From Conchocele bisecta (lineage: Eukaryota > Mollusca > Bivalvia > Lucinida > Thyasiridae), in the NCBI GenBank assembly GCA_029237695.1, contig CM055265.1:110844773-110908772 (forward strand): DNA of 64,000 nucleotides, given 5' to 3'. The notes beneath the pieces were generated by a model that saw only the letters and a list, made by a program, of their open reading frames with translations, searched no databases and was not told the DNA's origin. Of the stretch, positions 2,947-63,014 are shown piece after piece. The translations under genes were made by a program, and so were the position numbers. Position 1 is the first letter of the stretch; each line of letters opens with the position of its first letter.

Positions 2947-5411
2947 ACAAGACCTGTAGGAGAACAGCATAGCTCAACTACGAGGGTTGTCGATGTACAC
3001 ATAGCTTGACAAACAAGGTGGCTGCGGCCTGCATAAAAACCTTAACCAAGGTTGACTAAAAAACTTAACCAAGGGAAATTAACTAAGTAAGTCAAGGTTA
3101 AATGTAGGTCAATGACAGATATAGGTCAGGGGTTATTGATGTACATCACTATGAGAAAAGGTTGTCCAAGTATGTGTGTATGCACAATAGTATTCCATGT
3201 ACAAGCTTGAGTAAAAACCTTAACCAAGGTTGACTAAAAACCTTAACCAAGGGGAATTAACTAAGTAAGTCAAGGTTAAATGTAGGTCAATGACAGATAT
3301 AGGTCAGGGGTTATTGATGTACATCACTAGGAGATGAAGTTTTCCATGCATGGTTGCTGTAGGCCCAGGAGTATTGCATATACAAGCTTGACTAAAAACC
3401 TTAACCAAGGGGAAATAACTAAGTAATCGAAGGATAAAAGTAGGTCAAGGTCAAATATAGGTCAGGGATTATTGATGTACATCACTAGGAGATGAAGTTG
3501 TCCAAGTATGGTTGATGTAGGCCCAGGAGTATTCCATATACAAGCTTGACTATAAACATTAACCAAGTAATTCAAGGTTAAATGTAGGTGAAGGTAAAAT
3601 ATAGGTCAGGGGTTATTGATGTACATCCCTATGAGAAAAAGTTATCCAAGTATGGTGTCTGTATGCACAACAGTATTCCATATACAAGCTTGACTAAAAA
3701 CCTTAACCAAGGTTGACTAAAAACCTTAACCAAGGGGGGTTAACTAATTAATTCAAGGTTAAATGTAGGTCAAGGTGAAATATAGGTCAGGGGTTGTTGA
3801 TGTACATCACTAGGAGATGAAGTTGTCCAAGTATGGTTGGTGTAGGGCCAGGAGTATTCCATCTACAAGGTTGACTAAAAACCTTAACCAAAGAGAATTA
3901 ACTAAGTAATTGAAGAGGAAATGTAGGTGAAGGTCAAATATAGATCAGGGGTTATTGATGTACATCCCTATGAGAAAAGGTTGTCCAAGTATGGTGTCTG
4001 TATGCACAACAGTATTCCATGTAAAAGCTTGAGTAAAAACCTTAACCAAGGTGGACTAAAAACCTTAACCAAGGTGGACTAAAAACCTTAACCAAGGTGA
4101 CTTAAGTAAGTAATTCAAGAGGAAATGTAGGTCAAGGTGAAATATATATCAGGGGTTGTTGATGTACATCACTAGGAGATGAAGTTGTCCAAGTATGGTG
4201 GGTGTAGGGCCAGTAGTATTCCATATACAAGCTTGACTAAAAACCTTAACCAAGGGGAATTAACTAAGTAATTCAAGAGGAAATGTAGGTCAAGGTCAAA
4301 TATAGATCAGGGGTTATTGATGTACATCACTATGAGAAAAGGTTGTCCTAGTATGGTGTCTGTATGCACAATATAATTCCATGTAGAAAGCTTGACTAAA
4401 GATGAAGTTGTCCAAGTATGGTGGGTGTAGGGCCAGGAGTATTCCATATACAAGCTTGACTAAAAACATTAACCAAGGAGAATTAAGTAAGTAATTGAAG
4501 AGGAAATGTAGGTCAAGGTTAAATATAGATCAGGGGTTATTGATGTACATCCCTATGAGAAAAGGTTGTCCAAGTATGGTGTCTGTATGCACAATAGTAT
4601 TCCATGTACAAGCTTGACTAAAAACCTTAACCAAGGTTGACTAAAAACCTTAACCAAGGGGAATTAACTAGGTAATTCAAGGTTAAATGTAGGTCAAGGT
4701 CAAATATAGGTCAGGGGTTGTTGATGTACATCACTAGGAGATAAAGTTGTCCAAGTATGGTTGGTGTAGGGCCAAGAGTATTTCATCTACAAGGTTGACT
4801 AAAAACCTTAACCAAAGAGAATTAACTAAGTAATTCAAGAGGAAATGTAGGTCAAGGTCAAATATAGATCAGGGGTTACTGATGTACATCCCTAGGAGAT
4901 GAAGTTGTCCAAGTATGGTGGGTGTAGGGCCAGGAGTATTCCATATACAAGCTTGACTAAAAACCTTAACCAAGGGGAATTAAGTAATTGAAGAGGAAAT
5001 ATAGGTCAAGGTGAAATATAGACCAGGGGTTATTGATGTACATCCCTATGAGAAAAGGTTGTCCAAGTATGGTGTCTGTATGCACAATAGTATTTCAAGT
5101 ACAAGCTTGAATAAAAACCTTAACCAAGTTTGACTAAAAACCTTAACCAAGGGGAATTAACTAAGTAATTCAAGAGAAAATGTAGGTCAAGGTCAAATAT
5201 AGATCAAGGGTTATTGATGTAAATCAGTAGGAGATGAAGTTGTCCAAGTATGGTGGGTGTAGGGCCAGTAGTATTCCATATACACGGTTGACTAAAAACC
5301 TTAACCAAGGCGTGACGGTGACGCAGACGCAGACGCCGACGCCACGCCGACGCTGATGCCGACGCCGGGGTGACAATATAAGCTCTACTTATTCTTCGAA
5401 TAGTCGAGCTA
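2947..5411 (+). mobile_element. Helentron-like (pearl-like) non-autonomous element with tandem-repeat core
   Basis: Starts ACAAGACCTGTAGG, with a small hairpin (CTGT/ACAG), then TAGCTCAACTA. The core is a long tandem array, followed by a GACGC-rich stretch (5309-5370) and a 3' hairpin AGCTCTACTTATTC/GAATAGTCGAGCTA. The last arm TAGTCGAGCTA is the reverse complement of the 5' motif with one mismatch. It sits exactly between A and A of a family P element with no target duplication: the unoccupied site reads GAGTATCAAAAAGCAAT near 11318. No coding capacity, so it would depend on a helper Helitron. Pearl elements of oyster have this tandem-core design. Confidence 0.8.
3040..5305 (+). repeat. Tandem array, about 173-bp unit, with alternating dimeric structure
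   Basis: The landmark GTTATTGATGTACATC recurs 13 times (near 3130, 3312, 3468, 3611, 3786, 3951, 4156, 4311, 4531, 4706, 4876, 5026, 5210). Two unit types mostly alternate: one with CTAGGAGATGAAG and GTGTAGGGCCAGGAG, the other with CTATGAGAAAAGG and CTGTATGCACAA. The second type tends to be followed by two or three copies of an 18-bp subrepeat (GACTAAAAACCTTAACCA), the first by one. There is a rearranged unit at about 4390. Confidence 0.88.
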
Positions 5412-5684
5412 AAAAGCAATACAAAAATTGTGGTACCTTTATCATGCTGCAGAAAACAATAAACAAACCACAAAAATAGCATATTTTTCTAATTTTCAAT
5501 GAAAACACATCTTGGTATTTTATGAGAATTGTCTCCTTCGAAGCAAATTATTCGATAATTGCTGTATGTTGATGTGTAAACATTAGTGTGATTTTAATTT
5601 ACCCAATTACAATTTTGAAATACCCAATTGCTTCAGAAATGATGGTGTGACAACTCAATTATTAATTCCTTATCTGGAGCCCTG

Positions 5685-6589
5685 CATAGTCACAGTGTAC
5701 GTGTTGACATCCCTGTAGTAAACAGAAATTGGGAGTGAGTTCTCAACAAGCTTTCCACATTGACGATATAAATGACAGACGATAATATAGGTAGACCAGG
5801 TGTGTTATCATATCATAGCCTCATTTTCGTGCATAATAACTACATGATAGTCATCTTGGTGCGCAAAACGACATGTAGTGTGGCTCAGTGGTATCGAAGA
5901 GGGAGAATATCCACATACGTTTGCAAAACTTTTGTTCATTTTATCTGGTCGAGAGTTCGAACCTCACAAAACAAATTACTTTTGTCATATCATTGTTCTT
6001 TTTATGACTGGTTGCTGGAGAGGGAAATAGGTGAAACGGAGAGGGTTATCACTATTGACATATGACCTCAATACAACATGCAGACACATAAGAAATGTGC
6101 ATTAAGTTATTAGTTTTCTTCAAAGTGAGACTAACGTTCTACATGTAATCTATCTCATGCAATCTATTAATGCAATTTGTAAGAGCAACACACATAAAAA
6201 GAAATATATAATAAACAATAAACAAAATCAAAATATATGTATGAAAAACATAGATTTGAACTCACTACCTACGGCAATGATATACGTCACTTTAAGACTA
6301 CATAAGACTTGATGACAAATCTGAAAATCAATATTGAAAAGGAATACTGGCACAGGTATATTTACCTGTCTCACGTATTCTGTGTTTTGTTTATGACCGG
6401 TTTGTTTGTAAACAAGTAGCAAGTTATCGTCTGCAGACTATACATGTATATAGCAATACAGATAACATCGCCGTCACCTATTCTGTGTTTTGTTTATAAC
6501 CGGTTTGTTTATCGTCTGTGGACTATATATAGCAATATAGATAACATCGCCATCAGCTATTCCCCTCCACACAAACCAGCCATTAACCC
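5685..6589. other. Unique AT-rich sequence, no gene recognised
   Basis: Apart from the tRNA-like block at 5878-5965, nothing recognisable. A short direct repeat (TATTCTGTGTTTTGTTTATRACCGGT) occurs at about 6378 and 6480, and AGCAATACAGATAACATCGCC at 6453 has a near copy at 6531, so there is a local duplication of roughly 80-100 bp. Confidence 0.5.
5878..5965 (+). repeat. tRNA-like block with A- and B-box (SINE head candidate)
   Basis: TGGCTCAGTGGTA (A-box-like) at about 5881 and GAGTTCGAACCTC (B-box-like) at about 5951 lie some 70 nt apart. This is longer than in an ordinary tRNA gene, and no good acceptor stem is visible. Best read as a tRNA-derived SINE head or decayed tRNA-like sequence. 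Confidence 0.45.
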
Positions 6590-6604
6590 TTTCACCCCCA
6601 AGTA

Positions 6605-8165: not shown

Positions 8166-8167
8166 TA

Positions 8168-8846: not shown

Positions 8847-9796
8847 ACTAGATTGGTCAGTAAGCGAGGCCTACGGAATACCCCCCCCCCCACCCCCCCG
8901 CCCCCCGCGTGGGCCCAGGTACCCCTAAATATGTAAAATTTTCCAAGTGTGTCGCCTAGTGACCTTGACTCTATTAGCGGGGGCGGCACGAACGTGAATT
9001 TGTCACAGGGTGGTAGACGTCCATTGGAGCAATGCGTCTGTGAAATGTGAAGCAGATCCGAGCAAGGAAATAGAAGTTATAACCGATTTCTCTGATGTTA
9101 AGTTTTGTAAAGAGACTAAGTATGTAACCTTGACCTTGAGATCAGTGGGGATATGTCACAGCATGATAGTAGAGCCTTAGAGGAATGCATGCATGAAATA
9201 TTAAGAATTTACAATGAAGGAAATAGAAGTTATAACATATTTCTCTGATGTTAAGTTTTGTAAAGAGACCAAGTATTTGACCTTGACCTTGGGATCAGCG
9301 GGGGTTGGACGGTCGTAGATTTGTCACAACATGATAGTATAACCTTAGAGGAATGCATGCATGAAATATTAGGAATTTTAGATGAAGGAAATAGAAGTTA
9401 TAACATATGATGTTAAGTTTTGTAAAGAGACACAAGTATTTGACCTTGACCTTGGGATCAGCGGGGGTTGGATGGTCGTGGATTTGGCACAGCATGGTAG
9501 TAGAGCCTTACAGGAATGCACGAGTGAAATATTAATAATTTTCGATGAAGGAAATAAAAGTTATAACATATTTCTCTGATGTTAAGTTTTGTAAAGAGAC
9601 TTAAGTATTTGACATTGACCTTAGGATCAGCGGGGGTTGGACGGTCGTGGATTTGGCACAGCATGGTAGTAGCGCCTTACAGGAATGCATGTGTGAAATA
9701 TTAAGCATTTTAGATGAAGGAAATAGAAGTTACAACCTGACTCCAGTATACCCCCCCCCACTCCACCCTCACAACTCATTGCGGGGGGAGGTACAA
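8847..9796 (+). mobile_element. Helentron-like element with about 165-bp tandem repeats
   Basis: Starts ACTAGATTGGTCAG, then GGAATACCCCCC within a poly-C run (8881-8907). The tandem core has landmarks GACCTTGACCTTG at about 9129, 9287, 9442 and GACATTGACCTTAG at 9611. The 3' end is a hairpin between a TATACCCCCC run (9747) and GGGGGGAGGTAC (9783). The 5' GAATACCCCCC and 3' GGGGGGAGGTAC are near complements, following the same rule as the other elements here. The 3' boundary is approximate. Confidence 0.6.
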
Positions 9797-10049: not shown

Positions 10050-10512
10050 CAGAGCTCCAGATAAGCTGCGAATGCGCTTAAATACCCAATTAAAATTGCC
10101 AAAAACCAAATTGAAATCAGAATAGTGAGTATCAAAAAGCAATAACAAATTTGTGGTACCTTTATCATTCATGCTGCAGAAAACAATAAACAGAACTTAA
10201 ATACCCAATTAAAATTGCCAAAAACCCAAATGAAATCATAAGTAGCGTGTATCAAAAAGCAATAACACATTTATCATTCATGCAACAAATACAACATATT
10301 TTTCTTATTTTTCATGAAAACACATCTTGGTATTTCACGAAATGCCACGATATGTTTTCATTTAGAAGCAAACTAATTCAATAATTGCTGTCTGTTGATG
10401 TGTAAACAGTAGTGAGATTTTATTTTACCCAATTAAAATTTTGAAATACCAAATTGCTTCAGAAATGATGGAGTGAAACTACTCAATTATTAATTCCTTA
10501 TCTGGAGTTCTG
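10050..10512. repeat. Family P inverted-repeat element, copy 2
   Basis: CAGAGCTCCAGATAAG at 10050 to TTCCTTATCTGGAGTTCTG at the right. It contains an internal direct duplication of TTAAATACCCAATTAAAATTG (about 10077 and 10196), giving two AGCAATAACA blocks. Confidence 0.75.
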
Positions 10513-11235: not shown

Positions 11236-11651
11236 CAGAGCTCCAGATAAGCTGCGTATTTGCATAAATACCCAATTAAAATTGCCGAAAAACCCAATTG
11301 AAATCCGAAGTAGCGAGTATCAAAAAGCAATAACAATTTTGTGGTACCTGTATCATGCTGTAGAAAACAATAAACAGACCACAAATATATATTTGTATTA
11401 CTTTCCATGAAAACACATCTTGGTATTTCTTGGTACATCTTGGTATTTCATTACAATTGTCTCCAAGGAGACAATTCTAATGAAATGCCACATGTTTTCA
11501 TTTCAAAGCAAACTAATTCAATAATTGCTGTCTGTAGATGTGTAAACAGTAGTGAGATTTTATTTCACCCAATTAAAATTTTGAAATACCCAATTGCTTC
11601 AGAAATGATGGAGTGAAACTACTTAATTACTAATTCCTTATCTGCAGCACT
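11236..11651. repeat. Family P inverted-repeat element, copy 3
   Basis: CAGAGCTCCAGATAAGCTGC at the left to TTCCTTATCTGCAGCACTG at the right. The centre is a short perfect palindrome, ACAATTGTCTCC/GGAGACAATTCT (about 11453-11479). This intact copy provides the empty site for the insertion at 2947-5411 and the TTAA target for the insertion at 24459-24687. Confidence 0.8.
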
Positions 11652-14984: not shown

Positions 14985-15150
14985 TATAAGGAATGAATGG
15001 TCTTTTTGTTGAATTTATCGTGGATATAAACTTGGAAAAGTCGCGGGAATACTGGACGAGGCCTTCCGGCCTTCGTCCAGTATTCCCGCGACTTTTCCAA
15101 GTTTATACCCCGATAAATTCCAAAAAAAGGCCATTCATTCCTACAATATA
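14985..15150. mobile_element. Near-perfect 150-bp hairpin (foldback MITE)
   Basis: GGAATGAATGG ... CTTGGAAAAGTCGCGGGAAT, ACTGGACGAGGCC, then the mirror GGCCTTCGTCCAGT and complementary arm to CCATTCATTCC. The inner arms (about 32 bp) match perfectly across a 4-nt loop. A fragment (CGTCCAGTATTCCCGCGACT) recurs at 44536. Confidence 0.85.
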
Positions 15151-17670: not shown

Positions 17671-17860
17671 ACTAGACATTATGTTTGTGAAACATGGATA
17701 TGCCCCCTGGCATACTGGACTCTAACTGGAGAAACTCTTGCAAACTTTTTGACTTTTCAACGTAAACGTACACGGATGGATGGACGGACGTACGGACAGA
17801 ACCTCAAGAGCAACGCAATTTGCCCTCCCACCCCCCCGTTGCTATCGCATAGGGGGCATA
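17671..17860 (+). mobile_element. Minimal Helentron-like element, 190 bp
   Basis: ACTAGACATT, then the hairpin ATGTTTGTGAAACAT, then ATATGCCCCCT; a short core sharing GGAGAAACTC and ACAAACTTTTTGAC-type words with 16528-17067; an ACGGATGGATGG stretch; and the 3' hairpin arm AGGGGGCATA, exactly complementary to TATGCCCCCT. Flanks TTTTGA|ACTAGA and GGCATA|AAAAGG fit A/A insertion. Probably the smallest element in the window that keeps all terminal parts. Confidence 0.7.
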
Positions 17861-23316: not shown

Positions 23317-23658
23317 ACAAGAAATACGTCCGTCGAACGCGGATGCCACCTGCAGCATATTTGAGAAACTGTGACAAAGTGGTTAACCGAAAAGTGTGAC
23401 GGATGGACAGACAGGACGGGACGGACGGACGGACGGACGTTCTTACATTACTATACTTATGTGGCTTATCACATGTTAAATATTAGCCACATAAAACGAT
23501 TTTTAGCCACATAAAACGATTTTTTAGGTGGCTAATTGTAACCAACCCTATCCTTTACCAAGTCCATAACACTGTGGGGCTAGCCACATAAGTACCCTAA
23601 TGTGTGCCCGGACGGACGGACGGACGGACGGACGGACGGACAGACGGATGGACAGATG

Positions 23659-23690
<32 letters not shown>

Positions 23691-23740
23691 AACGGTCCAA
23701 ACACTATATGCCACCCGTTTCTTCGAAACCCGGTGGCATA
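23317..23740 (+). mobile_element. Helentron-like element with (ACGG)n and an embedded palindrome
   Basis: ACAAGAAATACG, small hairpin TCCG/CGGA, then GGATGCCACC; an (ACGG)n tract on both sides of a palindromic insert (23445-23603); (ACAG)n; and a 3' hairpin TATGCCACCCGTTTC/GAAACCCGGTGGCATA. The 5' ATGCCACC and 3' GGTGGCAT are exact complements. Host flanks ACATACA and AAAAGTGCAGATCCTGA match the unoccupied ACTTGCAAAAAGTGCAG at 2756, giving A/A insertion without duplication. Confidence 0.78.
23445..23603. repeat. Palindromic insert between two (ACGG)n tracts
   Basis: Arms ACATTACTATACTTATGTGGCT and, from the other strand, ACATTAGGGTACTTATGTGG. Three further AGCCACATA / TGTGGCT words occur inside, plus ACCCTATCCTTTACC. 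The insert lies between CGGACGTTCTT and GTGCCCGGACGG. A relative with different arms lies at 62683-62797. Confidence 0.7.
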
Positions 23741-23760: not shown

Positions 23761-24152
23761 CAGGGCTCCAGATTAAGGAATTAGTAATTGAGTATTGTTA
23801 CTCCATCATTTCTGAAGCAATTGGGTATTTCAAAATCTTAATTGGGTAAAATTAAATCACACTACTGTTTACACATCAACAGCAGCAATTATTGAATAGT
23901 TTGTTTCGAAATGAAAACATATCTTGGCATTTCATGAGAATTGTCTCCTTGGAGACAATTCTAATGAAATACCAAGATGTGTTTTCATGGAAAAATAAGA
24001 AAAATATTGGTGGTCTGTTTATTGTTTTCTGCAGCAAGATAACGGTACCACAAATGTTCTCATTGCTTTTTGATAACCGCCACTTCTGATTTCAATTGGG
24101 TTTTGGGCAATTTTAATTGGGTATTTACGCAAATACGCAGCTTATCTGGATA
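23761..24152 (-). repeat. Family P inverted-repeat element, copy 4 (inverted)
   Basis: CAGGGCTCCAGATTAAGGAA to AAATACGCAGCTTATCTGGA. Central palindrome GAATTGTCTCC/GGAGACAATTC with AATGAAATACCAAGATGTG. Confidence 0.75.
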
Positions 24153-24430: not shown

Positions 24431-24980
24431 CAGAGCTTCAGATAAGCTGCGTATTTGCTTAACCCTTTCCCTGTTTTGCGATATTTCGACTCTTCCAAAT
24501 CGAAAACATCTGAATAAAAGAATCAAATGCTGGGTCAAATGGTGGTTAAATTATCTGATAGAGTTGAAAACATTGTGGGAAAAGGAGAAATTGCTTGTTA
24601 CAAGCAATTTCTCCTTTTCCCACAATGTTTTCTAAAGACATCTTCTGCAGAGGCGTGAAAAGTCGTCTCTATCAGGGAAAGGGTTAAATACCCAATTAAA
24701 ATTGCCAAAAACCCAATTGAAATCAGAAGCAGTGAGTATCAAAAAGCAATAAAAAAAATGTGGTGCCTTTATCATACTGCAGAAAACAATAAACCGACCA
24801 CAAATATAGCACGTTTTTCTTATTTTTCCATGAAAACATGTTTTCAGTTAGAAGCAAACTATTCAATAATTGCTGTCTGCTGATATGTAAACAGCAGTAT
24901 TTTGAAATACCCAATTGTTTCAGAAATGATGGAGTGACAATACTGATTACTCAATTACTAATTCCTTATCTGGAGCACTG
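24431..24980. repeat. Family P inverted-repeat element, copy 5, with a nested T2 MITE
   Basis: CAGAGCTTCAGATAAGCTGC to TTCCTTATCTGGAGCACTG. The T2 MITE at 24459-24687 sits in GTATTTGC-TTAA-ATACCC, which is uninterrupted in copy 1 (about 2884) and copy 2 (about 10075). Confidence 0.85.
24459..24687 (+). mobile_element. TTAA-ended palindromic MITE, family T2, copy 1
   Basis: TTAACCCTTTCCCTG...GGGAAAGGGTTAA. Centre AAAAGGAGAAATTGCTTGTT/ACAAGCAATTTCTCC, arms ACATTGTGGG/CCCACAATGT. The TTAA of the host is present at both ends, a direct demonstration of TTAA duplication. Confidence 0.9.
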
Positions 24981-25142: not shown

Positions 25143-25760
25143 ACTAGAAAATTGTTTGTAAAAGAAAATGGCACCACTGTTGAGCATTCATGAATACGTT
25201 TGGAGAAAAAATTATTTTGAGAGTCGAAAAAGGGGCATAACTGCGGATGGAAGGGTGGGACAGTGAAAATGTTTACGTTACGAACTCCTGCACTTAATGG
25301 TTGGAATGTATACCGAGTATGAAAAGAATCGGCCAAAAACTATAGAAGTAGTTCACCCTACAAGGAAAAAACAAATGTTCAGAGTCGAAAAAGGCACATA
25401 ACTGCGGATGGATCAGTGGGACCGGGAAAATGTTTACGTTATGCACTCCTGTATTTGATGGTAGGGATGTATACCGAATATGAAGAGAATCGTACAAAAA
25501 TTGTAGAAGTAGTTTGCCGGACAAGGAAAAAAATATATTTACAGAGTCGAAAAAGGGGTATAACTCTGGATGTACATGTATCAGTGGAACAGCAAAAATA
25601 TTTACATTACGCTCTCCTGCACTTGATGGTACGGCTGTATATCGAATATGAAGAGAATCGGCCAAAACCTGTAGAAGTAGTTCACCGGACAAGGACAATT
25701 GTCTACTGACAGACGGACGGACAGGGTAAAGTTTAAACACTGTATGCCACCGACAACTTA
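25143..25760 (+). mobile_element. Helentron-like element, 3' hairpin incomplete
   Basis: ACTAGAAAATTG start with TGGCACCAC near 25170; tandem repeats of about 170 bp with GAGTCGAAAAAGGGGCATAA, TGCGGATGG, GTTTACGTTA, AGAAGTAGTTCACC (about 25221, 25381, 25544); then ACAGACGGACGGACAGG and ACTGTATGCCACCGAC. The right arm GGTGGCATA expected at the 3' end is absent, so the copy is 3'-truncated. Long open minus-strand frames come from the repeat. Confidence 0.6.
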
Positions 25761-26200: not shown

Positions 26201-27394
26201 ACAAGAGGGCCATGATGGCCCTAATTCGCTCACCTGACTCCATGAACACCAGACGAGAATGTGACATTGAGTTCATATGTTTTAAAAAAATTGTGCTATT
26301 TTTAGATGGCGGTCATCTTGGATTAAGCGATGACTCATTTTACCAAATCTGAAAATGCTTCACCCAAGGATCTGAACTTCCTATGAAGTTTGGCCAGCAT
26401 CGGCAATGTGGTTCCTGAGAAAAAGACGTTCAAAATCTCGAATAAATGGACCTTTTGGTGGCCATCATGGATGACATAATCATCCGATTCCGACAAATAT
26501 TGCATTAGAGCAATCGCCTCATCTATACCTTCAATTTGATATATGACATGAGCATATTCGGTCAAAAATAAAATTTGATCCCAATTTGACACCACGGGCC
26601 ACGCCCATTTTTGACCCCGGGGTCACCATTTTCACAACTTTGAAAGAGCATTGTACATCGATCATTCCTACGAAGTTTAGTCAAAATCCGGCTAGCGGTT
26701 CATGAGAAGAAGATTTTTTAAGAATTTATGCTATTTTTAAACGGCTGCCATCTTGTATTAGCGATGACCTCCATTTTAACAAATCTGAAAAGGCTTCACC
26801 CATGGACCATAACTTTTAAGTTTGGCTACCATGGGCCAAGCGGTTCATGTGAAGAAGAATTTTGAAATCTCTAATAAAAGAACAACTTTTTGACCTTTCG
26901 TCGGCCATCTTGGATGACATAACCATCCGATTTCGACAAAAAATGCACCAGAGTGATCGCCTCATTGATACCTTCAATTTGATATATGACATGACCATAT
27001 CCGGTCAAAAATAAAATTTGACCCCAATTTGACCCCACGGGCCACGCCCATTTTTGACCCCGGGGTCACCATTTTAACAACTTTGAAAGAGCATTGTACA
27101 TCGATCATTCCTACCAAGTTTTGTTGAAATCCGGTTGGCGGTTCTTGAGAAGAAGATTTTTGAAGAATTTGTGCTATTTTTAGACGGTGGCCATCTTGGA
27201 TTACGTAATGACGTCATTTTAACAATTTTGTAATCCCCCTACCTAAGGACCATGACCATGAAGTTTGATGACTATAGGCCCAATGGTTACCGAGGAGAAG
27301 ACGTTTGAAAATGTTCATGGACGACGGACGACGACGACGACGACGGACACATTGCGGTAACAATAGCTCACATGAGCTTTGCTCAGGTGAGCTA
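26201..27394 (+). mobile_element. Helentron-like element, family H2, 1.2 kb
   Basis: ACAAGA, hairpin GGGCCATGATGGCCC, then TTCGCTCACCTG; about 440-bp repeats (ATTTTTGACCCCGGGGTCAC, GCCATCTTGGAT, CCTTCAATTTGATATATGAC); GACGACGACGG tract at 27320-27345; 3' hairpin TAGCTCACATGAGC/GCTCAGGTGAGCTA. The 5' GCTCACCTG and 3' CAGGTGAGC are exact complements. A longer copy is at 53870-55947. No coding capacity; open frames on the minus strand are repeat readings. Confidence 0.85.
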
Positions 27395-27584: not shown

Positions 27585-28045
27585 ACATTAGAGAAATGGG
27601 CCGAATCGCTTTTGTGATCAGCCACAATCTGATCAGGGTGTACACCATTCGCCATTCAGTCAGTGAAACACCTGTTAACCCTTACACCGCTATATTAATG
27701 TTTTTGCCGTCTGCTGTTTATTTTCTGTTTTCCATTTTTATCATCAAAAACATGCCTTGACAGCACTTTAGAATAATTTACAACATGCTTTGACAGCACT
27801 TTAGAATAATTTACAACATGCTTTGATAGCACCATTGGAAATGATTCTGAAGTGCTGTCAAACCATGTTTTTTTTTAGAAATAAGGAAAGATATAAAAGC
27901 AAAAAGCAACAGCAGACGACAATTGTTATGTGTAGCGGTCTAAGGATTAAGCCTTTACCTAACAGTGCAGATCCTAATCAGACTGCAGAAGAGTACTAGT
28001 AAATATGCAGTTAGACTGACAACAAAAGCCATAAGCCCCATTTCT
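27585..28045. repeat. Family R-like sequences flanking a T1 MITE
   Basis: GATCAGCCACAATCTGATCA, GTGTACACCATTCGCCATTC and GTGAAACACCTG on the left; CAGTGCAGATCCTAATCAGA on the right of the T1 copy. The two parts are not a simple continuation, so rearrangement or two adjacent R fragments are both possible. Confidence 0.5.
27675..27950. mobile_element. TTAA MITE, family T1
   Basis: TTAACCCTTACACCGC ... AGCGGTCTAAGGATTAA, with a direct duplication of ACTTTAGAATAATTTACAAC in the left arm that lengthens this copy. Confidence 0.82.
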
Positions 28046-29080: not shown

Positions 29081-29330
29081 TTAACCCGTAGACCGCTCCT
29101 CACAACAATTGTCGTCGGCTGTTGCTTTTATATCTTGACTTATTTCTTAATAAAAACATGGTTTGACAGCACTTCAGAATCATTTCCAATGGAAATGATT
29201 CTGAAGTGCTTACAAAGCATGTTGTAAATTATTCTAAAGTGCTGTCAAAGCATGTTTTTGATGATGAAAATGGAAAATAGAAAATAAACAGCAGACGACA
29301 AAAAAATTAAGATAGCGGTCTAACGGTTAA
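29081..29330 (-). mobile_element. TTAA MITE, family T1 (inverted)
   Basis: TTAACCCGTAGACCGC ... AGCGGTCTAACGGTTAA; centre CATTTCCAATGGAAATG, arms AGCACTTCAGAATC/GATTCTGAAGTGCT. Confidence 0.85.
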
Positions 29331-31959: not shown

Positions 31960-32620
31960 TTTTCATTATTTGACTTTTTTCATTTATTATTTTCTTTGCT
32001 ATAGAAACGGTAGTGAAAGCCATAGTGCTATGTCTACTGTCTGTTTCACGAAAGCTGCCCAAATTTTACGGCCATATAGACAATTCAAAAACAATATTAT
32101 TTTCGATAATATTAAATTAAAGGAAAATTTAAGAATGAGCCTTCTTTTTATTTCGTGAAATTCGGTCAAATATTTATTTTATTACGAAAAATTGATTTGT
32201 CTATGGGAATTTAACATGGGCCTGGGGTAAAAAGTGGTAAGGAAGTGTAGGAGGAGTCAAAAAACGAAAAAAATTGGAAATTGACTCCGAAACCCGACTA
32301 GATAGCTTGGATATGATCTAAGAAAATTTTAAAAATCAGTCCAGTATTTCTAAAATTCAAAAAAAATTCCCCATGTTAAATCCCCATAGACATCTTCACT
32401 CGTGAAGATGTCTATGGGGATTTAACATGGGGAAATTGTTTTTTCGGAATAAAATCAATATTTTACCAAATTTCACGAAATAAAAAGAAGGCTCATTTTC
32501 CTTTAATTTAATATTATCAAAAGAAATCTTGTTTTTGAATTGTTTACATAGCCGTAAAATTTGGGCAGATTTCGTGAAACAGACAGATAATGTACTACGA
32601 CTACGTATTACGTGCATATT
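31960..32620. mobile_element. Large palindromic element, about 600 bp
   Basis: Left arm TGTCTGTTTCACGAAAGCTG, CCAAATTTTACGGCCATATA, TTAATATTAAATTAAAGG-type words, CCTTCTTTTTATTTCGTGAA, TTTGTCTATGGGAATTTAAC; right arm carries the complements in reverse order. The right arm itself has a perfect hairpin at 32388-32425 (CATAGACATCTTCACTCGTG/AAGATGTCTATG). The middle of the left half is partly repeated at 33300-33470. Confidence 0.8.
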
Positions 32621-36763: not shown

Positions 36764-37012
36764 TTAACCCTTAGACGCTACTCTCAACATTTGTCGTCTG
36801 CTGTTGCTTTTATATCTTGCCTTATTTCTCAATACAAACATGTTTTAACAGCACTTCAGAATCATTTCCAATGGAAATGATTCTGAAGTGCTGTCAAAGC
36901 ATGTTGTAAATTATTCTAAAGTGTTGTTAAAGCATGTTTTTGATGATAACAATGGAAAATAGAAAATAAACAGCAGACGACCAAAAACATAAGATAGCGG
37001 TCTAAGGGTTAA
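36764..37012 (-). mobile_element. TTAA MITE, family T1 (inverted)
   Basis: TTAACCCTTAGACGC ... AGCGGTCTAAGGGTTAA; centre CATTTCCAATGGAAATG; almost the same as 29081-29330. Confidence 0.88.
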
Positions 37013-43670: not shown

Positions 43671-43914
43671 TACGTAACGGATTTTTTTATGAAATATGGC
43701 GCATCAAACGCGTCTTGTTAAGCTGCATTTTGTGGTCTCTGTATTTTAGCCTAAACTTCTGTCGTTTTTGCGAAGAAACGATTTCCGTGTCTCCGACACG
43801 GAAATCGATTCTTTGCAAAACGACATAAGACTGTGCCAAACTCCCTGGACCACCAAATGCATCTCATGAATACGCGTTTGCTGCACCATATTTCATCGAG
43901 ATCCGTTGCATATT
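43671..43914. mobile_element. Palindromic element, about 240 bp
   Basis: TAACGGATTTTTTTATGAAATATGGCGCA / TGCACCATATTTCATCGAGATCCGTTGCA outer arms (in parts up to 20 nt matched), AAACGCGT / ACGCGTTT, CGATTTCCGTGTC / GACACGGAAATCG central hairpin, GTTTTTGCGAAGAA / TTCTTTGCAAAACGAC. Confidence 0.78.
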
Positions 43915-52667: not shown

Positions 52668-53869
52668 AGGTCCCACTCAGTAGGCACAAACTGTTCTTTA
52701 TAGGAATTAAATAAGTGTATAATAGTGTCACTATTCCACCAATTCTAAAAATTACTAAAATAACAAGAGTTGTCAGAAGACAACAAAGCTCGCCTGTTGG
52801 CAGCCTTCACTCAAACATGGCACAGTTGTATACAAAACATGAATATTATATAGCTTGACCTTGGGTTAAGGGGTGTGCGGTGGACCTTGATATTGAGATC
52901 AGTGGTGGGTCGTGGATTTGCTATAGCACGATATAGCATATTAAGATAAATGCATGCATGAAATATCACTGCGCTCCCTGAAAACAGAAGTAAAACAAAA
53001 TTAAACCCAACATTAAGTTTATGAACGCACTAAGTTGGTGATTTTAGTTGGTGATATAGCTATTCACATGAGGAATGCATGTGTGAATGTGCTAAGTTTG
53101 TGACCTTGGGGAAAGGGGTGGGGTGGGTCATGGATTTGCTGTAGCACAATAGACGATCATCAGATGAATGCATCTATGAAATATCAGGCGTTTCTTGTAA
53201 AGAAACAGAAGTTATAAAAAGACATTTACTCCAACGTTAAGTTTATGATGTTGATCTTGTGGAAAGGGGTGGGGGTGGGTCATGGATTTGCTGTAGCACA
53301 AAGGAGGATCATCAGATGAATGCATGTATGAAATATCAAAATGTTCAAAGTGTAAAGAAACAGAAGTTACACAACATTTACCCCAACGTAAAGTTTATGA
53401 ACATGCTAAGTTCGTAACTTTGACCTTGGGGTAAAGGTTAGGTGGTGGGTTGTGGATTTGCTACATCATGGTAGAGGGTCATATGAGGAATGCATGTATG
53501 AAATATCAAGGCGTTCATTCAAAGGAAACAGATGTTATCAGACATTTACCCCAACGTTAAGTTTATGAATGTTTATGAATGTGCTAAGTTTGTGACATTG
53601 CCACTGGGGTAAGGGGTGGGGGCGGGTCATGGATTTGCTATAACACGATAGAGTATCATCAGATGAATGCGTGTATGAAATATCAAGGCTTTACATGAAA
53701 GGAAACAGATGTTATAACGTTAAGTTTATGAATGTGCTAATTTTATGACCGTGACCTTGGGGAAAGGGGTGGGGGTGGGTCATGGATTTGCTATAGCACG
53801 ATAGAGTATCATCAGATGAATGCATGTATGAAATATCAAGGCGTTCCCTGTAAAGAAACAGAAGTTATA

Positions 53870-55947
53870 ACAAGAGGGCCATGATGGCCCTAATTCGCTC
53901 ACCTGCCTCCATGAACACCAGAGGAGAATGTGACATTGAGTTCATGTGTTTTAAACAAATTGTGCTATTTCTAGATGGCGGTCATCTTGGATTAAGCGAT
54001 GACTCTCATTTTACAAAATCTGAAAATGCTTCACCCAAGGATCTTAACTTCCTATGAAGTTTGGCCAGCATCGGCCATGTGGTTCCTGAGAAAAAGACGT
54101 TCAAAATCTTGAATAAATGGACCTTTTGGTGGCCATCATGGATGACATAATCATCCGATTCCGACAAATATTGCACCAGAGCAATCGCTTCATCGATACC
54201 TTCAATTTGATATATGGCATGAACATATTCGGTCAAAAATAAAATTTGACCCCAATTTGACCCCACGGGCCATGCCCATTTTTGACCCCGGGGACACCAT
54301 TTTCACAACATTGAAAGAGCATTGTAAATCGATCATTCCTACCAAGTTTAGTCGAAATCCGGCCAGCAGTTCATGAGCAGATTTTTTAAGAATTTATGCT
54401 ATTTTCAGACGGCGGCCATCTTGGATTAGCGATGACCTCCATTTTAACAAATCTGAAAAGGGTTCACCCATGGACCATAACTTTTAAGTTTGGCTACCAT
54501 GGGCCAAGCAGTTCATGTGAAGAAGAATTTTGAAATCTCTAATAAAAGAACGACCTTTAGACATTTCGGCGGCCATCTTGGATGACATAGCAATCAGATT
54601 TCGACAAAAAAAAATGTACCAGAGTGATCGCCTCATTGATACCTTCGATTTGATATATAACATGACCATATTCGGTAAAAAATAAAATTTGACCCCACGG
54701 GTCACGCCCATTTTTGACCCCGGGGTCACCATTTTAACAACTTTAAAAGAGCATTGTACATCGATCATTCCTACCAAGTTTCGTCGAAATCAGGCTAGCG
54801 GTTCATGAGAAGAAGATTTTTTAAGAATTTATGCTATTTTTAGACGGCGGCCATTTTGGATTAGCGATGACCTCCATTTTAACAAATCTGAAAAGGCTTC
54901 ACCCATGGACCATAACTTTTAAGTTTGGCTACTATGGGCCAAGCGGTTCATGTGAAGAAGAATTTTGAAATCTCTAATAAAAGAACGACCTTTTGACATT
55001 TCGGCGGCCATCTTGGATGACATAACAATCCGATTTCGACAAAAAATGTACCAAAGTGATCGCCTCATTGATACCTTCGATTTAATATATAACATGACCA
55101 TATTCGGTCAAAAATAAAATTTGACCCCAATTTGACCCCACGGGCCACGCCCATTTTTGACCCCGGGGTCACCATTTTAACAACTTTGAAAGAGCAATGT
55201 ACATCAATCATTCCTGCCAAGTTTCGTCGAAATCCGGCCAGCGGTTCATGAGAAGAAGATTTTTAAGAATTTATGCTATTTTTAGACGGCGGCCATCTTG
55301 GATTAGCGATGACCTCCATTTTAACAAATCTGAAAAGGCTTCACCCATGGACCATAACTTTTAAGTTTGGCTACCATAGGCCAAGCGGTTCATGTGAAGA
55401 AGAATTTTGAAATCTCTAATAAAAGAACGACCTTTTGACCTTTCGGCGGCCATCTTGGATGACATAACAATCCGATTTCGACAAAAAATGCACCAGAGTG
55501 ATCGCCTCATTGATACCTTCAATTTGATATATGACATGACCATATTCAGTCAAAAATAAAATTTGACCCCAATTTGACCCCACGGGCCACGCCCATTTTT
55601 GACCCCGGGGTCACCATTTTAACAACTTTGAAAGAGCAATGTACATCGATCAGTCCTACCAAGTTTTGTCGAAATCCGGTTGGCGGTTCTTGAGAAGAAG
55701 ATTTTTTAAGAATTTGTGCTATTTTTAGACGGCGGCCATCTTGGATTACGCAATGACGTCATTTTAACAATTTTGTAATTCCCCTACCTAAGGACCATGA
55801 CCATGAAGTTTGATGACTATAGACCCAATGGTTACCGAGGAGAAGACGTTTGAAAATGTTCACGGACGACGGACGACGACGGACGACGGACGACGACGGA
55901 CACATTGCGGTAACAATAGCTCACATGAGCTTCGCTCAGGTGAGCTA
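53870..55947 (+). mobile_element. Helentron-like element, family H2, 2.08 kb, nested in H1
   Basis: Same ends as 26201-27394 (ACAAGAGGGCCATGATGGCC ... CAGGTGAGCTA) with about four 440-bp repeats instead of two. It is inserted in the H1 tandem repeat: left AGTTATA, right AAAAGACATTTACTCC; a sister repeat (53213) reads AGTTATAAAAAGACATTTAC, so insertion is A/A with no duplication. GACGACGG tract at 55866-55900. Confidence 0.9.
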
Positions 55948-57393
55948 AAAAGACATTTACTCCAACGTTAAGTTTATGATGTTGATATTGGGGAAAGGGG
56001 TGGGGGTGGGTCATGGATTTGCTGTAGCACAATAGAGGATCGTCCGATAAATGCATGTATGAATATGAAATATCAAAGCGTTCCCTGTAAAGAAACAGAA
56101 GTTACACAACATTTACCCCAACGTAAAGTTTATGAACATGCTAAGTTTGTCACCTTGACCTTGGGGTAAGGGTTGGGTGGTGGGTCGTGTATTTGCTACA
56201 GCATGGTATAGGGTCATCTTAGGAATGCATGTATGAAATATCAAGGCGTTCCATCAAAGGAAACATGTTATAAGACATTTACCCCCAACGTTAAGTTTAT
56301 GAATGTGCTAAGTTTGTGACCTTGACCTTGGGATAAGGGGTGCGCGGTGGGTCATGTATTTGCTATAGCACGATAGAGTATCATCAGATGAATGCATGTA
56401 TGAAATAGCAAGGCGTTCCATGTAAGGAAAGAGATGTTATCAGATATTTACCCCAACGTTAAGTTTATGAATGTGCTATGTTTGTGACCTTGACCTTGGG
56501 GAAAGGGGTGGGGGTGGGTCATGGATTTGCTATAGCACGATAGAGTATCATCAGATGAATGCATGTATGAAATATGAAGGCGTTCCCTGTATATAAACAG
56601 AAGTTACACAACATTTACCCCAACGTTAAGTTTATGAACATGCGTGTGTGTGACCTTGACCTTGGGGTAAGCGTTGGGTGGTGAGTCGTGCATTTGCTAC
56701 AGCATGATAGAGGGTCATCTGAGGAATGCATGTATGGCATATCAAGGCGTTCCATGAAAGGAAACAGATGTTATAAGACATTTACCCCAACGTTAAGTTT
56801 ATGAATGTGCTAAGTTTGTGACCTTCAGCTTGGGGTAGGGGTTGGGTGGTGGGTTGTGGATTTGCTATAGCACGATAGAGGGTCATCTGAGGAATGCATG
56901 TATGAAATAGCAAGGCGTTCCATCAAAGAAAACAGATGTTATCAGACATTTACCCCAACTTTAAGTTTATGAATGTGCTAAGTTTGTGACCTTGACCCTA
57001 GGGTAAGGGGTGGGCTGTGTGTCATGGATTTGCTATAGCACGACAGAAGTACATGTATTATCAGATGAATGCGTGTATGAAATATCAAGGCGTTCCATGA
57101 AAGGAAACATATGTTATAAGACATTTACCCCAACGTTAAGTTTATGAATGTGCTAAGTTTGTGACCGTGACCTTTCTGAAAGGGATGGGGGTGGGTCATG
57201 GATTTGCTGTAGCACGATAGAGTATCATCAGATGAATGCATGTATGAAATACCAAGGCGTTCCCTGTAAAGAAACAGAAGCTATACAAATACATTTACTC
57301 CAACGTTAAGTTTATGATGTTGATCTTGGGGAAAGGGGTTTAGTTTAAACATATTTTATTGCTCTAATTTGACATGGTATATAAAAATAACAG

Positions 57394-58136
57394 TTAAAGC
57401 GGCTCCACTCCAGATGGGATTACAGTGTACTGTATTTTTTTCACGCGATGTTTACCTGCATTTGCTATATATCTACACATTGCGAGCTCATTTTCGGTTG
57501 GTGGATGTTTATATTCGCGTTAAATCGTACTTTATACGTCCCTATACGAAAGGGCTTTTCCGTTTCCAATTCTATTTTTACTTACGACCTGCTTGCCGTA
57601 CGTAATCCCACGTGACACAAATGGCCCACAAATCATACTTCCGGGCATGCGCACATCGCGTCCAGCTATATCAACAACAATGTCCGACTCTGAGGTAAGT
57701 CGATACATATTAGCGTTATACACAGGCGTTCTATATGAAACAAATGTGTTTCAACATCAATACATTTCCAAATAACTTACTTTTACCTAGGGCAGACCAC
57801 AGATGTTGTTTAAATATATAGAAAGTATGTATTCTGAACATGTCAAAACCATGCTCGTCTCATCTTCCGCTCTGCGAGTCGCCATTTTGGTGGCCAAGAC
57901 AGTCAACTGCGCATGTGCATGATACCACGTGACGGGCAATATCAGTATAGCGCGAATTATAAAAATAAATGGGAGTAACGCGCGCCACTCCCAACAAATT
58001 AATTAATATTAAATAAATAAATATCTATACTGGCCATTTATAATTTTTAAACCTGTCGCAATAGTTACATCATTAGGTACTTATTTATTTAAAATAGTAT
58101 CCGTTTTAACCCTCATCTGGAGTGGAATCTCTTTAA
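57394..58136 (+). mobile_element. TTAA-flanked element with promoter-like and first-exon-like content
   Basis: Left TTAAAGCGGCTCCACTCCAG, right CTGGAGTGGAATCTCTTTAA: inverted termini sharing TCCACTCCAGATG, TTAA at both ends. Inside, 57600-57700 holds CCACGTGAC, ACTTCCGGG and GGCATGCGCAC (E-box, ETS-like and NRF1-like words) before an ATG with a splice donor. A second cluster at 57880-57935 (CTTCCGC, GCCATTTTGG, GCGCATGTGCATG, CCACGTGAC) is arranged in mirror fashion. TTAA fits the piggyBac group by inference. Confidence 0.65.
57680..57694 (+). CDS. Possible 5-codon first exon (MSDSE) with consensus splice donor
   Basis: AACAACAATGTCCGACTCTG, AG|GTAAGTC. The donor is an ideal match (GAG|GTAAGT). 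The exon lies just downstream of promoter-like words. An acidic Ser/Asp/Glu N-terminus is common in piggyBac-type transposases, so this may be the first exon of a lost transposase, with the remaining exons deleted. A captured host promoter is the alternative. No downstream exon was found. Confidence 0.3.
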
Positions 58137-58658
58137 TACATACAATTTTACAAAAAGAGCAAACGGGTTGGGCTACAAGTTTTTGCAACATTAGTTACAG
58201 CCCGTCCCAATTGCTTATTGAATATATCTAAAGAGGTATAACAGGGTGAATATAAGTATTTTGTTTGTGTTTCACATTCTCTATAGAGCAAGTATAATTA
58301 TACTAATTTTCACATGAGCATATCAATCAAGATAGTGAAATTTCTTAAATTCTTAAATAGTAATATCGACATGCTCATGATCTAATCAATATTAAACGAA
58401 ACTATCAAACATAATTGTTCAGTGTAACATTGTTGCACCCAATCAATTCACCACTCACCTTCCAAGCTAAGTGGCCTTGATCGAGAGACCCCCGAACATG
58501 CTCATACAACCGACACCCGAAATCAGCCACCTATACTGGTCGTGACCGAGCATGCTCGGTCATTACCACTAAAAGCGCCACGACTCGAGCACGGACCGCG
58601 GAGCACACACAGGAATACTCGCGAGCAAGGACACAGGTAACCTTTTGTAATAAACAGC

Positions 58659-59568
58659 TTAACGCGTAAGTTTAATGTAATTTTGGACTTCTTTAAATAT
58701 GCATGAATTATCTTCAACAGTTAGCGATTCTTTACCAAATAGTAGGGTTTGCACCGATAATGGATGGTACTGACGGGTTGCTTCAAGGAGGTCGATTCGT
58801 TGCTGATGATATAATTGACATTTGAAAAGAAAATGTTCAGCGTCTTCGTCTTCGGCAGAACATTGACATAAAGGAGATTCTCTCAAGTGATTTTTATGTA
58901 GATCTGCATTAAGGTTGCTGCATTGGTTTCTTATACGGCAGTGGTAAATGGATAAAGTTCTATCGCCGATAAGAAAATGTTCTGGAACTAGTGGAGGTCT
59001 GAATATTTGTTTTAATTTATTTTTAAAAACGGCAATCGATTCGGAATTTTTTATTTCATTATTTAGTTCATTCCAAAATGCCACAGATGACGGTATAAAA
59101 GATTTAGAATAAAGTTCGGTCCGTCGAGCTAATGTAACAAAATTGTTCATATTACGTAGTCCGTATGTATTATTTTCTCCGACCAGTTGTGGAAAAAGTT
59201 GGTGTACATAAGTGGGTAGTATACCTTCCTTTTCTTTATATATTATTATTAGTTTCTGAATTTGTCGTCGGTCTGAAAGAGATACCCATCCAATTTCTTT
59301 GAGAAGAGTGTTTATTGATGATGACCGGGTTATTCCTGTTTACTGTTCGTGCTGCTTCGTATTGAAGTTTTTCGTGGGATTCGCGTTCATAGTTTGTGCA
59401 ACTATCCCATACAATTGATGCATATTCGAGAACCGGTCTCATGTACGATATATATATTTGATTTAGAGTTTTTCTGTTTATTTTAAATTTGATCATTTTC
59501 ATAGAACCTAATACCTTCGACGCAGACTTAATTATATTTTAAATATGTTCATGCCAGTTACCATCAGG
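58659..59568 (-). pseudogene. Non-LTR retrotransposon ORF2 C-terminal relic (reverse transcriptase end)
   Basis: Minus strand. From the truncation at 59568: HEHI, stop TAA (59539-59541), NIIKSASKVLGSMKMIKFKI, NRKTLNQIYISYMRPVLEYA, SIVWDSC, EKLQYEAARTV. A one-base insertion near 59340 shifts the frame. It then continues TGITRSSSINTLLKEIGW, LSDRRQIQKLIIIYKEKEG, LPTYVHQLFPQLV, NNTYGLRN, then RTELYSKSFIPSSVAFWNEL, a Cys/His pattern CQC...HFLFKC, and stops at 58659-58661. This is the typical tail of molluscan LINE ORF2 proteins (thumb and C-terminal Cys/His region). The palm domain with the catalytic Asp pair is missing, so it cannot be active. Confidence 0.88.
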
Positions 59569-59851
59569 GGGGAAAGGGGTGGGGGTGGGTCATGGATTTG
59601 CTGTACCGTAGCACAATAGAGGATCATCAGATGAATGCATGTATGAAATATCAAAGCGTTCCCTGTAAAGAAACAGAAGTTACACAACATTTACATGTAT
59701 GCATGTATGAAATATCAAGGCGTTCCATGAAAGTAAACAGATGTTATAAGACATTATAAGACATTAACCCCAACGTTAAGTTTGTGGACGCCGACACCGA
59801 CGACGCCGGGGGTATGCCATAAGCTCTTCTGCACTTCGTGCAGGCGAGCTA

Positions 59852-60164: not shown

Positions 60165-60186
60165 TCTAAAAATTACTATACAGATT

Positions 60187-60859: not shown

Positions 60860-61118
60860 ACTGGTGTTGCACTCCGCGCCGGTGGAAAATGTTTCGTGTC
60901 GAAATAGGCGCCGGATTCCTCGCGACTTCCAATTTAGCTACATGCAGCAGATACATGAACACATTTTCGTCTAGTAGCCGGCGGAAAAAAAAGTTACTAG
61001 ACGACAAATGTGTTTAAGTGATAGCTCTAAGTAGAGCTGAGTGCCACCTCGTCAGGAAACCGGTGCATTTTTCGACGTCCCACATTTACGCCGGCTCGGA
61101 GTGCAGCACCAGTGAAAT
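60860..61118. mobile_element. Palindromic MITE with CACTGGTG termini
   Basis: TCACTGGTGTTGCACTCCGC at the left, CTCGGAGTGCAGCACCAGTGA at the right, with further symmetric blocks GCGCCGGTGGAAAATG / CATTTACGCCGGC and ACATTTTCGTCTAGTAGCC / TTACTAGACGACAAATGTG. A fragment of the family is at 11706-11790. Confidence 0.8.
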
Positions 61119-61300
61119 ATAGAGACTTATAGTAGGGTCATTTTCGAGGATTCCGTGACCATTATGTTCCTACATTTGTTATTGTTGATTTGGCAACTTG
61201 AACCATTTTAGGAACAAAATATCTTCTATGCATTTTTCAAAAATGATGGGAAAACATTTTAGAGCACACAATTCAAAATGGCCGCCAACGCCATTTTTAA
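61119..61300. other. Unassigned spacer
   Basis: No repeat family of the window recognised; AAAATGGCCGCCAACGCCAT occurs just before the next element. Confidence 0.4.
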
Positions 61301-61672
61301 ACTAGAAATGGACGCTTGTCGACAAGCGCATGTGTATCCCCCTCCCCAGTTACACAAGTAGTTTGAAAAAAGGGTGTTCGAGTTATGTTCCGGAGACAAA
61401 ATCAGTGACGGAAAAAACAAAGGGAGATAACTAAAAAATTAGTGATGCAAGAGTTGTCATTCTTGCGTGACACACCTTTAGGGTTGTGATCTATGCATGT
61501 GTGAAGTTTCATGAAAATATTCCAAAGGGTGTTCGAGTTATGCTCCAGACACGAAATCAGTGCACAAAACAACAAAGGGAGATAACTAAGAAATTAACGA
61601 CGCAAGAGTTGTCATTCTTACGTGCGACACACATTTGGGTCGTCTTCTATGCATGTTGTGAAGTTTAATAAA

Positions 61673-62875
61673 ACTAGAAAATGTGTTCATAGAACACGGA
61701 GTCCCACAAAATGGTCCCACATATCGCTGAAATATGAAGCTGATCCGTGAAAGAAAACAGAAATTATAAGATATTTACCTGAGCGTTAAAGTTTTTGAAG
61801 CACTAAGTATGTGATGTTAACCCTGGGCTTGGCGGGGGCGGGACGAACGTGGATTTGGCACAGGGCGGTAGAGGACCATTAGAGCAACGCATATATGAAA
61901 TATGAAGTTGATCCGTGAATGGAAAGAAAAATTATAAGATATTTACCTGAGCGTTAAAGTTTTTGAAGCACCAAGTATGTGACCTTGACCCTGGGATTGG
62001 CGGGGCAGGACGAACGTGGATTTGGCACAGGGCGGTAGAGGACCATTAGAATAATGCGTATATGAAATATGAAGATGATCCATAAAAGAAAACAGAAAGT
62101 ACAAGATATTTACCCGAGCGTTAAAGTTTTTGAAGCACTAAGTATGTGATCTTGACCCTGGGCTTGGCGGGGGCAGAACGAACGTGGATTTGTCACAGGG
62201 CGGTAGAGGACCATTAGAGCAATGCGTATATGAAATATGAAGCTGATCCGTGAAAGAAAACAGAACTTATAAGATATTTACCCGAGCGTTAAAGTTTTTG
62301 AAGCACCAAGTATGTAACCTTGACCCTAGGCTTGGCGGGGGCAGGACGAATGTGGATTTGGCACAGGGCGGTAGAGGACCATTAGAGCAATGTGTATATG
62401 AAATATGAAGCTGATCCGTGAAAGAAAGCAGAAATTATAAGATATTAACCCGAGCGTTAAAGTTTTTGAAGCACCAAGTATGTGACCTTGACCCTGGGCT
62501 TGCCGGGGGCAGGACGAACGTGGATTTGGCACAGGGCGGTAGTGAACCATCAGAGCAAAGTGTATATGAAATATGAAGCAGATCGGTCGAAGGATGAAGA
62601 AATTATGAGACATTTACCCGAGTGTTAAAGTTTTGTGACGGACGGACGGACGGACGGACGGGAGGACGGGACGCACGTTCCTACGAATGAATACTTGTTG
62701 GGTTTTTACTGTATAAAAATACCCAACAAGAGTACCCAACACTATCCTAACCCTACCCAATAAGATCCCCGTACACTTACAACAAGTACCCATTCGTGTG
62801 TGCGGACGGACGGACGGACGGACGGACGGACGAGGGTAACACTAAATGCCCCCTCCACTATCGTGGTGGGGCATA
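61673..62875 (+). mobile_element. Helentron-like element with five about 165-bp repeats and (ACGG)n
   Basis: ACTAGAAAA, hairpin TGTGTTCATAGAACACG, GAGTCCCAC; units with GTGACCTTGACCCTGGGCTT, GGACGAACGTGGATTTGGCA, AGAGGACCATTAGAGCAA; (ACGG)n on both sides of a palindromic insert; 3' hairpin ATGCCCCCTCCAC/GTGGTGGGGCATA. Host repeat GAAGTTTAATAAA | AAATATTCC compares with intact GAAGTTTCATGAAAATATTCC at 61512, so insertion is at an A run without duplication. Confidence 0.75.
62683..62797. repeat. Palindromic insert between two (ACGG)n tracts
   Basis: Left ACGAATGAATACTTGTTGGG; right, from the other strand, ACGAATGGGTACTTGTTG. The interior has an inner hairpin (TTGTTGGGTTTTTA / AAAAATACCCAACAAG) and AACACTATCCTAACCC. 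Flanking words ACGTTCCT and TGTGCGGACGG match those around 23445-23603. Confidence 0.7.
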
Positions 62876-63014
62876 CAAATATTCCAAAGGGTGTTCGAGT
62901 TATGCTCTGGATACAAAATCAGAGCACGAAACAACAAAGGGAGATAAGTAAACAAGAATTCCGCGGAATCAGATGCCTCGCCTGGGCCCGAAAGCAATTT
63001 TCACTGGCCCGAAT

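Follow-up and report, generated by a model that had tools for sequence, protein, structure and literature searches.

Helentron-like elements with matched subterminal repeats and a 5' mini-hairpin in a 64 kb region of the Conchocele bisecta genome

In this study, a stretch of 64 kb (38% GC; hereafter the window) from the 1.89 Gb genome of the bivalve Conchocele bisecta (assembly GCA_029237695.1, contig CM055265.1, positions 110,844,773 to 110,908,772) was analysed with respect to a set of repeated elements, which an earlier note had described as Helentron-like, with ends that co-vary between families. These elements are almost certainly HINEs, i.e. non-autonomous Helentrons (rolling-circle transposons of the Helitron2 type), located on the minus strand. 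The best explanation taken as a whole, namely HINEs whose matched subterminal repeats serve as a signal at both ends for a Rep/helicase supplied in trans, is very probably correct. The paired change of both ends is real and has already been published, and a conserved extra-stable loop of the 5' hairpin is a small addition to the published picture.

In the published order of HINE parts, a T-rich flank is followed by the 5' subterminal inverted repeat (subTIR), a complementary inverted repeat (IR), a GTCY-like microsatellite, tandem repeats, the 3' subTIR and a palindrome, and the insertion takes place in TT. This plan was recovered element by element on the minus strand of the window, where the 3' termini read TCT(T/A)GT, and the description as Helentron-like was thereby borne out. 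The assignment of the 5' and 3' ends in the earlier note was reversed, since the 5' end of a HINE is the hairpin next to the A-run (T-run when the opposite strand is read). Read on the minus strand according to the published plan, what the note calls the 5' motif corresponds to the 3' subTIR; the note's last 3' arm is the 5' subTIR, and the left arm of that hairpin the IR, while AC(A/T)AGA is the complement of the HINE 3' terminus. The motif itself is the family-specific subTIR, also referred to as the asymmetric terminal inverted repeat (ATIR).

Eight elements with both ends were distinguished in the window, all on the minus strand. E1 (2947..5411) is a full HINE, with the 5' subTIR at 5401-5411, the IR at about 5381-5389, a C-GAA-G loop at 5395-5397, the 3' subTIR at 2970-2980 and a weak palindrome at about 2954-2967. 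E2 (17671..17860) is a HINE of 190 bp without tandem repeats, with subTIRs at 17851-17860 (5') and 17699-17708 (3') and a C-GATA-G loop. E3 (23317..23739) carries the subTIR ATGCCACC at 23732-23739 and 23343-23350 and a C-GAA-G loop, and E4 (26201..27393) the subTIR AGCTCACCTG and a C-AAA-G loop. E5 (52763..59850; subTIR AGCTCGCCTG at 59841-59850 and 52787-52796, C-GAA-G loop) is interrupted by E6 (53870..55946; C-GAA-G loop), a member of the E4 family nested in the E5 tandem array. E7 (8847..9793) is degenerate, with the subTIR TACCTCCCCCC/TACCCCCCCCC and no GNA or GNNA loop, and E8 (61673..62875; C-GATA-G loop) is nested in the array of another HINE, the one starting at 61301. Tandem arrays were found inside E1, E4, E5, E6, E7 and E8, and microsatellites were also seen. 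The IR complementary to the 5' subTIR and the hairpin formed there are present, if imperfect and weakest in E2; the palindrome near the 3' end is clear in E2, E4, E5, E6 and E8, and weak or not predicted in E1, E3 and E7.

For the insertion boundaries, the flanks of the eight elements were joined and the window was searched for copies spanning the junction (E7 was tried with the end 9783, not 9793). Spanning empty sites were obtained for four of the eight elements: E1 (four sites), E3 (three), E6 (20 rows, the majority from tandem array copies) and E8 (one). None was found in the window for the other four, E7 with its wrong end among them. In the four elements with empty sites, the junction lies in an A-run of the plus strand (A|A, equal to T|T on the HINE strand), is exact to a base or two and shows no target site duplication (TSD). 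Wherever this comparison was possible (4/8), the assigned ends coincide with the boundaries. A canonical Helitron1 (5' TC, 3' CTRR, A|T target, no inverted repeats) was ruled out by the ends and the empty sites, and a miniature inverted-repeat or other terminal inverted repeat transposon by the lack of TSD in the same four elements and by an inverted repeat that is subterminal at one end. The E1 insertion is held by one copy of a dispersed repeat which has at least five copies in the window (10076-10192, 11262-11382, 24010-24130, 24684-24801 and around 2947).

The six core elements (E1-E6) and the five sequence pairs quoted in the earlier note were all found in their places, with the motif complementary to the last hairpin arm in 6/6: pair 1 (TAGCTCAACTA/TAGTCGAGCTA) has one mismatch in 11, pair 3 extends over only 8 bp and the remaining pairs match without error along 9 to 10 bp. 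The subTIRs are matched in seven of the eight window elements (E1-E7), E8 reaching only 7/9, and also in E9, a full element with the 61301-type motif at positions 1774-2217 of the random genome block L044. Among the elements with boundaries given by empty sites, E1, E3 and E6 match and E8 does not. Four elements had been said to follow the plan more loosely. E7 follows it (10/11, in C-runs at both ends, the end having been placed by seeking the match), whereas the own ends of E8 score no better than swaps. In the element at 25143 (25143..25760, end approximate, minus strand), a HINE with the 3' end ATGGCACCAC and tandem repeats, the closing arm of the 5' hairpin is missing; the fourth (61301..61672, minus strand) is the 3' part of an outer HINE of the TATCCCCC family, whose far, 5' end lies outside the window and whose motif is complete in E9.

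The core motifs were compared with 1164 window 16-mers preceding AAAA, own arms included, and the own score was reached by 1 (E1), 1 (E2), 9 (E3), 2 (E4), 2 (E6) and 1 (E5) of them. Partners were also permuted, and the observed sum of scores was reached by the identity alone with 5 (1/120), 6 (1/720) and 8 families (1/40320). In the permutation of 8 families, bases 12-45 were taken as the motif region and the final 16 bases as the arm; the own-pair scores of E1, E2, E3, E4, E5, E7, E8 and E9 were 9, 10, 8, 10, 10, 9, 5 and 8 (sum 69), as compared with a mean of 38.7 and a maximum of 53 for the derangements. With the E7 end at 9787 instead of 9793, the seven-family permutation gave 2/5040. Own ends are therefore favoured over the shuffled partners which the earlier note proposed as a check, at 1/40320, a value biased upward because the ends (those of the note's elements and of E7) were partly picked with complementarity in view. 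E9 was not chosen blindly either, being followed up among five rows from random blocks since its 5' end resembled the 61301 motif, and the row search that yielded it did not use the other end. The relaxed scan of these blocks, in which chance rows abound, was not drawn on as evidence; in random DNA of 200 kb (4 × 50 kb), few HINE ends and one full element were recognised. By eye, positions 7 and 10 vary among the look-alike subTIRs with AGCTC ends (E1, E4, E5), in each case at both ends in step; position 6 does so in two of the three. The claimed family-wise co-variation thus holds per family, with one exception (E8).

Chance or an assembly artefact, i.e. hairpins and A-runs expected in AT-rich DNA, would find support in short matches, which by themselves are common within 8-9 kb. 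Given the four elements with empty sites, by which this explanation is in effect refuted for E1, E3 and E6, and the many scored copies, its probability is negligible. For the start of E6, 40 matches of 1312 first-look candidates were scored. For E2, 40 relatives of 2283 such candidates were scored (81-100% identity), of which 24, the own copy included, align over 1-190, showing that both ends are kept and not where the boundaries lie, as the query stops there. Arms of the E3 type around C-GNA-G occur at 6535 places in the genome (3232 forward and 3303 reverse), with all six printed strings identical to E3, and reversed-pattern controls, also run for the pattern described below, gave 0.

At the level of the genome, places were counted at which two ends of 9-10 bp lie as far apart as in E2-like elements, with one central subTIR position varied. 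The C-G state was found at 17 distinct places, the A-T state at 18 and all 16 combinations at 42, i.e. matched states prevail in 35/42 places, which are copies and not independent events, the latter being therefore fewer than 42. The other 14 combinations account together for 7 places, one of which belongs to a class (G/T on the left with C/A on the right) that may or may not be matched, so that 6 to 7 of 42 fall outside the two matched states. On the assumption that the remaining six places all belong to the mixed A/C by T/G cells, Fisher's P would range from 7e-7 to 7e-6 depending on the split. In this count, matching of the ends extends from the window to the genome.

Several observations weigh against the preferred explanation. 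The count above covers the subTIR ends of copies, and only two of the 40 scored E2 relatives are among the 42 places. Within 8 kb, an 8-9 bp match combined with a loose hairpin is easily come by: a test for motif plus hairpin with 9 exact bases was passed by 56/3000 and 74/3000 random starts, by 5/35 AC[AT]AGA sites of the plus strand and by 1/24 of the minus strand; its positives at 32297 and 32532 look like chance, and the core elements E1 and E3 fail it because 9 exact bases are required. E8 was inserted although its subTIR match is 7/9, and position 1 of the subTIR is mismatched in E4 and E6. By alignment score, the fit of the 5' subTIR is better to the 3' subTIR than to the IR in E1, E2 and E5, equal in E7 and worse in E3, E4, E6 and E8; of the two matches, the one between the ends is thus not tighter as a rule. 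Finally, the thirty top-scoring loci of the E4/E6 family hardly vary at their ends; 12 of them show both ends, and the sole motif change among these (locus L023) is uncompensated. The near identity of these copies and their one-sided change would suit pure descent, in which each family copies a source whose ends matched by chance and then decays slowly under no current constraint. This is improbable, as the eight families differ mutually and seven match (with the caveat of selection noted above), the look-alike families change at both ends in step (by eye), and the C-G and A-T states are both common in the genome while the rest are rare.

The 5' subTIR has two partners, the 3' subTIR and the IR, and both are kept; neither comparison tells end pairing from reading by one protein. 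Among the families with AGCTC ends, the IR departs from complementarity at subTIR position 6 in two and at each of positions 7, 8 and 10 in one. Covariation is also seen in the inner stem of the hairpin, a part not repeated at the 3' end: in E1, E3, E5 and E6, 16/16 pairs are kept with different bases (permutation 1/24; derangement mean 4), a count made outside the closing C-G and without E4, which is like E6, or the inner stems of E2 (3 pairs) and E8 (4 pairs). The loops are C-GAA-G in E1, E3, E5 and E6 and C-GATA-G in E2 and E8, in all six cases on the HINE strand. A GNA or GNNA loop is therefore present in 6/7 families defined without regard to the loop, E7 having none and the E4 copy of the E4/E6 family having AAA. 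Among hairpins outside element ends (stem of at least 3, loop of 3 or 4), C-GNA-G or C-GNNA-G was found in 25/5411 (11/2537 and 14/2874), and with stems of at least 5 in 2/246 and 3/300, i.e. in 0.4-1% of other window hairpins. Such loops closed with G-C pairs are described as forming extra-stable DNA mini-hairpins (PMC4686876). Since the families are partly related (E1, E4/E6 and E5; by resemblance, E2, E8 and E9), its conservation is most reasonably attributed to two or three lineages. The loop class indicates which strand folds.

In the proposed mechanism, a Rep/helicase supplied in trans would nick between T and subTIR (T|subTIR) on the 5' side, a mini-hairpin of the C-GNA-G or C-GNNA-G kind would form at the 5' end of the displaced HINE strand and, when replication arrives at the 3' end, the 3' subTIR would be read as a second copy of the same signal. 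The reading might occur in two modes: the 3' subTIR may base-pair with the 5' subTIR and open the hairpin, as in the model of Bao and Jurka (2013), or both copies may be read by the same protein surface. Under either mode both copies must match, and families would thus keep or replace them together. The second mode corresponds to a rival of the claim that end pairing matters, according to which a single protein, Rep or a partner, recognises an identical sequence at either end, as duplex or as single strand, and the ends never pair. Any inverted binding site would yield the same covariation, which speaks against pairing as such, and the prevalence of matched states in the genome also fits; this rival comes close to an even chance. 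It is opposed by the covariation of the inner stem and the strand-specific loop, owing to which single-strand folding probably matters at the 5' end, and the G opposite T in E1 would still pair weakly. True pairing of the ends, rather than shared recognition by a protein, is a serious possibility that we rate somewhat below even. The claim of the earlier note that 5'-3' pairing matters is supported in part, namely for the matched ends, whereas pairing is not separated from one-protein binding or descent. More tentatively, and we consider this rather doubtful, the Helentron 5' end could be a strand-specific two-state switch, i.e. a GNA/GNNA mini-hairpin selected on the displaced strand, with a freely replaced stem sequence, that is opened after replication when the 3' subTIR pairs with the 5' subTIR.

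Much of this has precedents. Bao and Jurka (2013; PMC3627910) described compensatory base mutations that keep the end features in Helitron-1N1_CQu and Helitron-1N2_CQu, and proposed that pairing of the 5' and 3' ATIRs could break up the 5' hairpin and define where replication ends. Yang and Barbash (2008; PMC2374699) listed species-specific subTIRs (their Table 1) and inferred compensatory mutations in the 3' stem-loop, and Thomas et al. (2014; PMC4067079) defined families by identical subTIRs. With these publications, the main idea of the earlier note is already in print, and the window adds families and numbers: matched Helentron ends, recognised but little tested, are now counted on several families in one genome and with the orientation corrected.

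Of the known systems, Cg_HINE of Crassostrea gigas (Vojvoda Zeljko et al. 2020; PMC7492417) shares the 5' subTIR of 11-12 bp, the complementary IR, a GTCY/GTCC-type microsatellite, tandem repeats, the 3' subTIR, the palindrome, a T-rich target without TSD and the presence of several families per genome; its families are other ones, and the sequence of the 5' hairpin loop is not discussed in the parts of that paper covered. Helitron2 (PMC3627910) shares the asymmetric terminal inverted repeats, the 5' hairpin, compensatory mutations between related elements and the pairing proposal, but the example there is one Culex pair, as opposed to eight families and a genome count here. DINE-1/Helentrons of Drosophila and mites (PMC2374699, PMC4067079) share species- or family-specific subTIRs, the TT target, central repeats and a stem-loop, and differ in that mite subTIRs are palindromic and the fly 5' IR is only partly complementary. 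Both printed 5' hairpins of FoHeli1 and FoHeli2 of Fusarium oxysporum (PMC5148889) close with C-GAA-G, and the 3' end CTCCTGT of FoHeli3-5 resembles TCT(T/A)GT; these elements are fungal, include autonomous members and have no central tandem repeats in the parts covered, where the main text on FoHeli1/2 never uses the word "loop". FoHeli1, with like ends, gave a joined-end PCR product, which rolling-circle amplification did not confirm (PMC5148889). A description of a GNA/GAA loop or mini-hairpin for Helitrons was not found in the literature searched, where the one listed paper that mentions Helitron deals, judging by its title, with a plant lectin. On the two-state reading, the loop class, being common to this genome and the printed FoHeli1/2 ends, would mark the Helitron2 branch structurally. 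Should the loop recur in other genomes, it could serve as an automatic 5'-end signature for Helitron2-type elements and as a direct substrate for Rep binding. The 5' hairpin of Drosophila INE-1 may also close with a GNA loop; a stretch of INE-1 was not found in a text search of the papers.

Concerning an autonomous partner, Helitron_like_N (PF14214) gave 77 matches in the source genome, with open frames of up to 2046 aa, and none in 14 control genomes. No Pfam match to a Helitron Rep was obtained among ten of the 22 listed window frames, and a Helentron Rep motif, written from general knowledge as a DNA pattern, had 0 matches in viral contigs. The motif pattern of the elements likewise had 0 matches in viral contigs and 7 in other genome contigs, all in bacteria-titled records and all without the rest of the motif.

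The window contains further features. The only strong Pfam match among the ten frames compared is DDE_Tnp_4 at 548-1303 (plus strand, E 1.6e-25), a frame which we take to be a fragment of a PIF/Harbinger-type transposase. Inside E5, at 58659-59339 (minus strand), an open frame of 226 aa, for which no Pfam match exceeds the cut-off, is possibly a retrotransposon fragment. A HINE-like 3' end with the palindrome ATTCCGCGGAAT and the motif ATGCCTCGCCTGG is located at 62952..63100 (extent approximate, minus strand), and a partner end for it was not found in the window. An end close to ACAAGACGCGTTTGATGCGCC is present at 43718 (minus strand) and at three more sites in random blocks (L038-L042, about 47623, minus strand; L048-L052, about 34891, plus strand, and 14813, minus strand); it, too, can be read as a 3' end of the TCTTGT type that has a palindrome, and a matched subTIR was not found in the window. 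A 33-bp tandem unit (AACATGCTTTGACAGCACTTYAGAATAATTTAC or its near-complement) forms four short arrays (2183-2246, 27749-27832, 29193-29256 and 36875-36938) and is perhaps another repeat family. A long palindrome around GGCC-GGAA-GGCC at 15067 (minus strand) is repeated in the genome (L038, about 8103; L048, about 325 and 1078).

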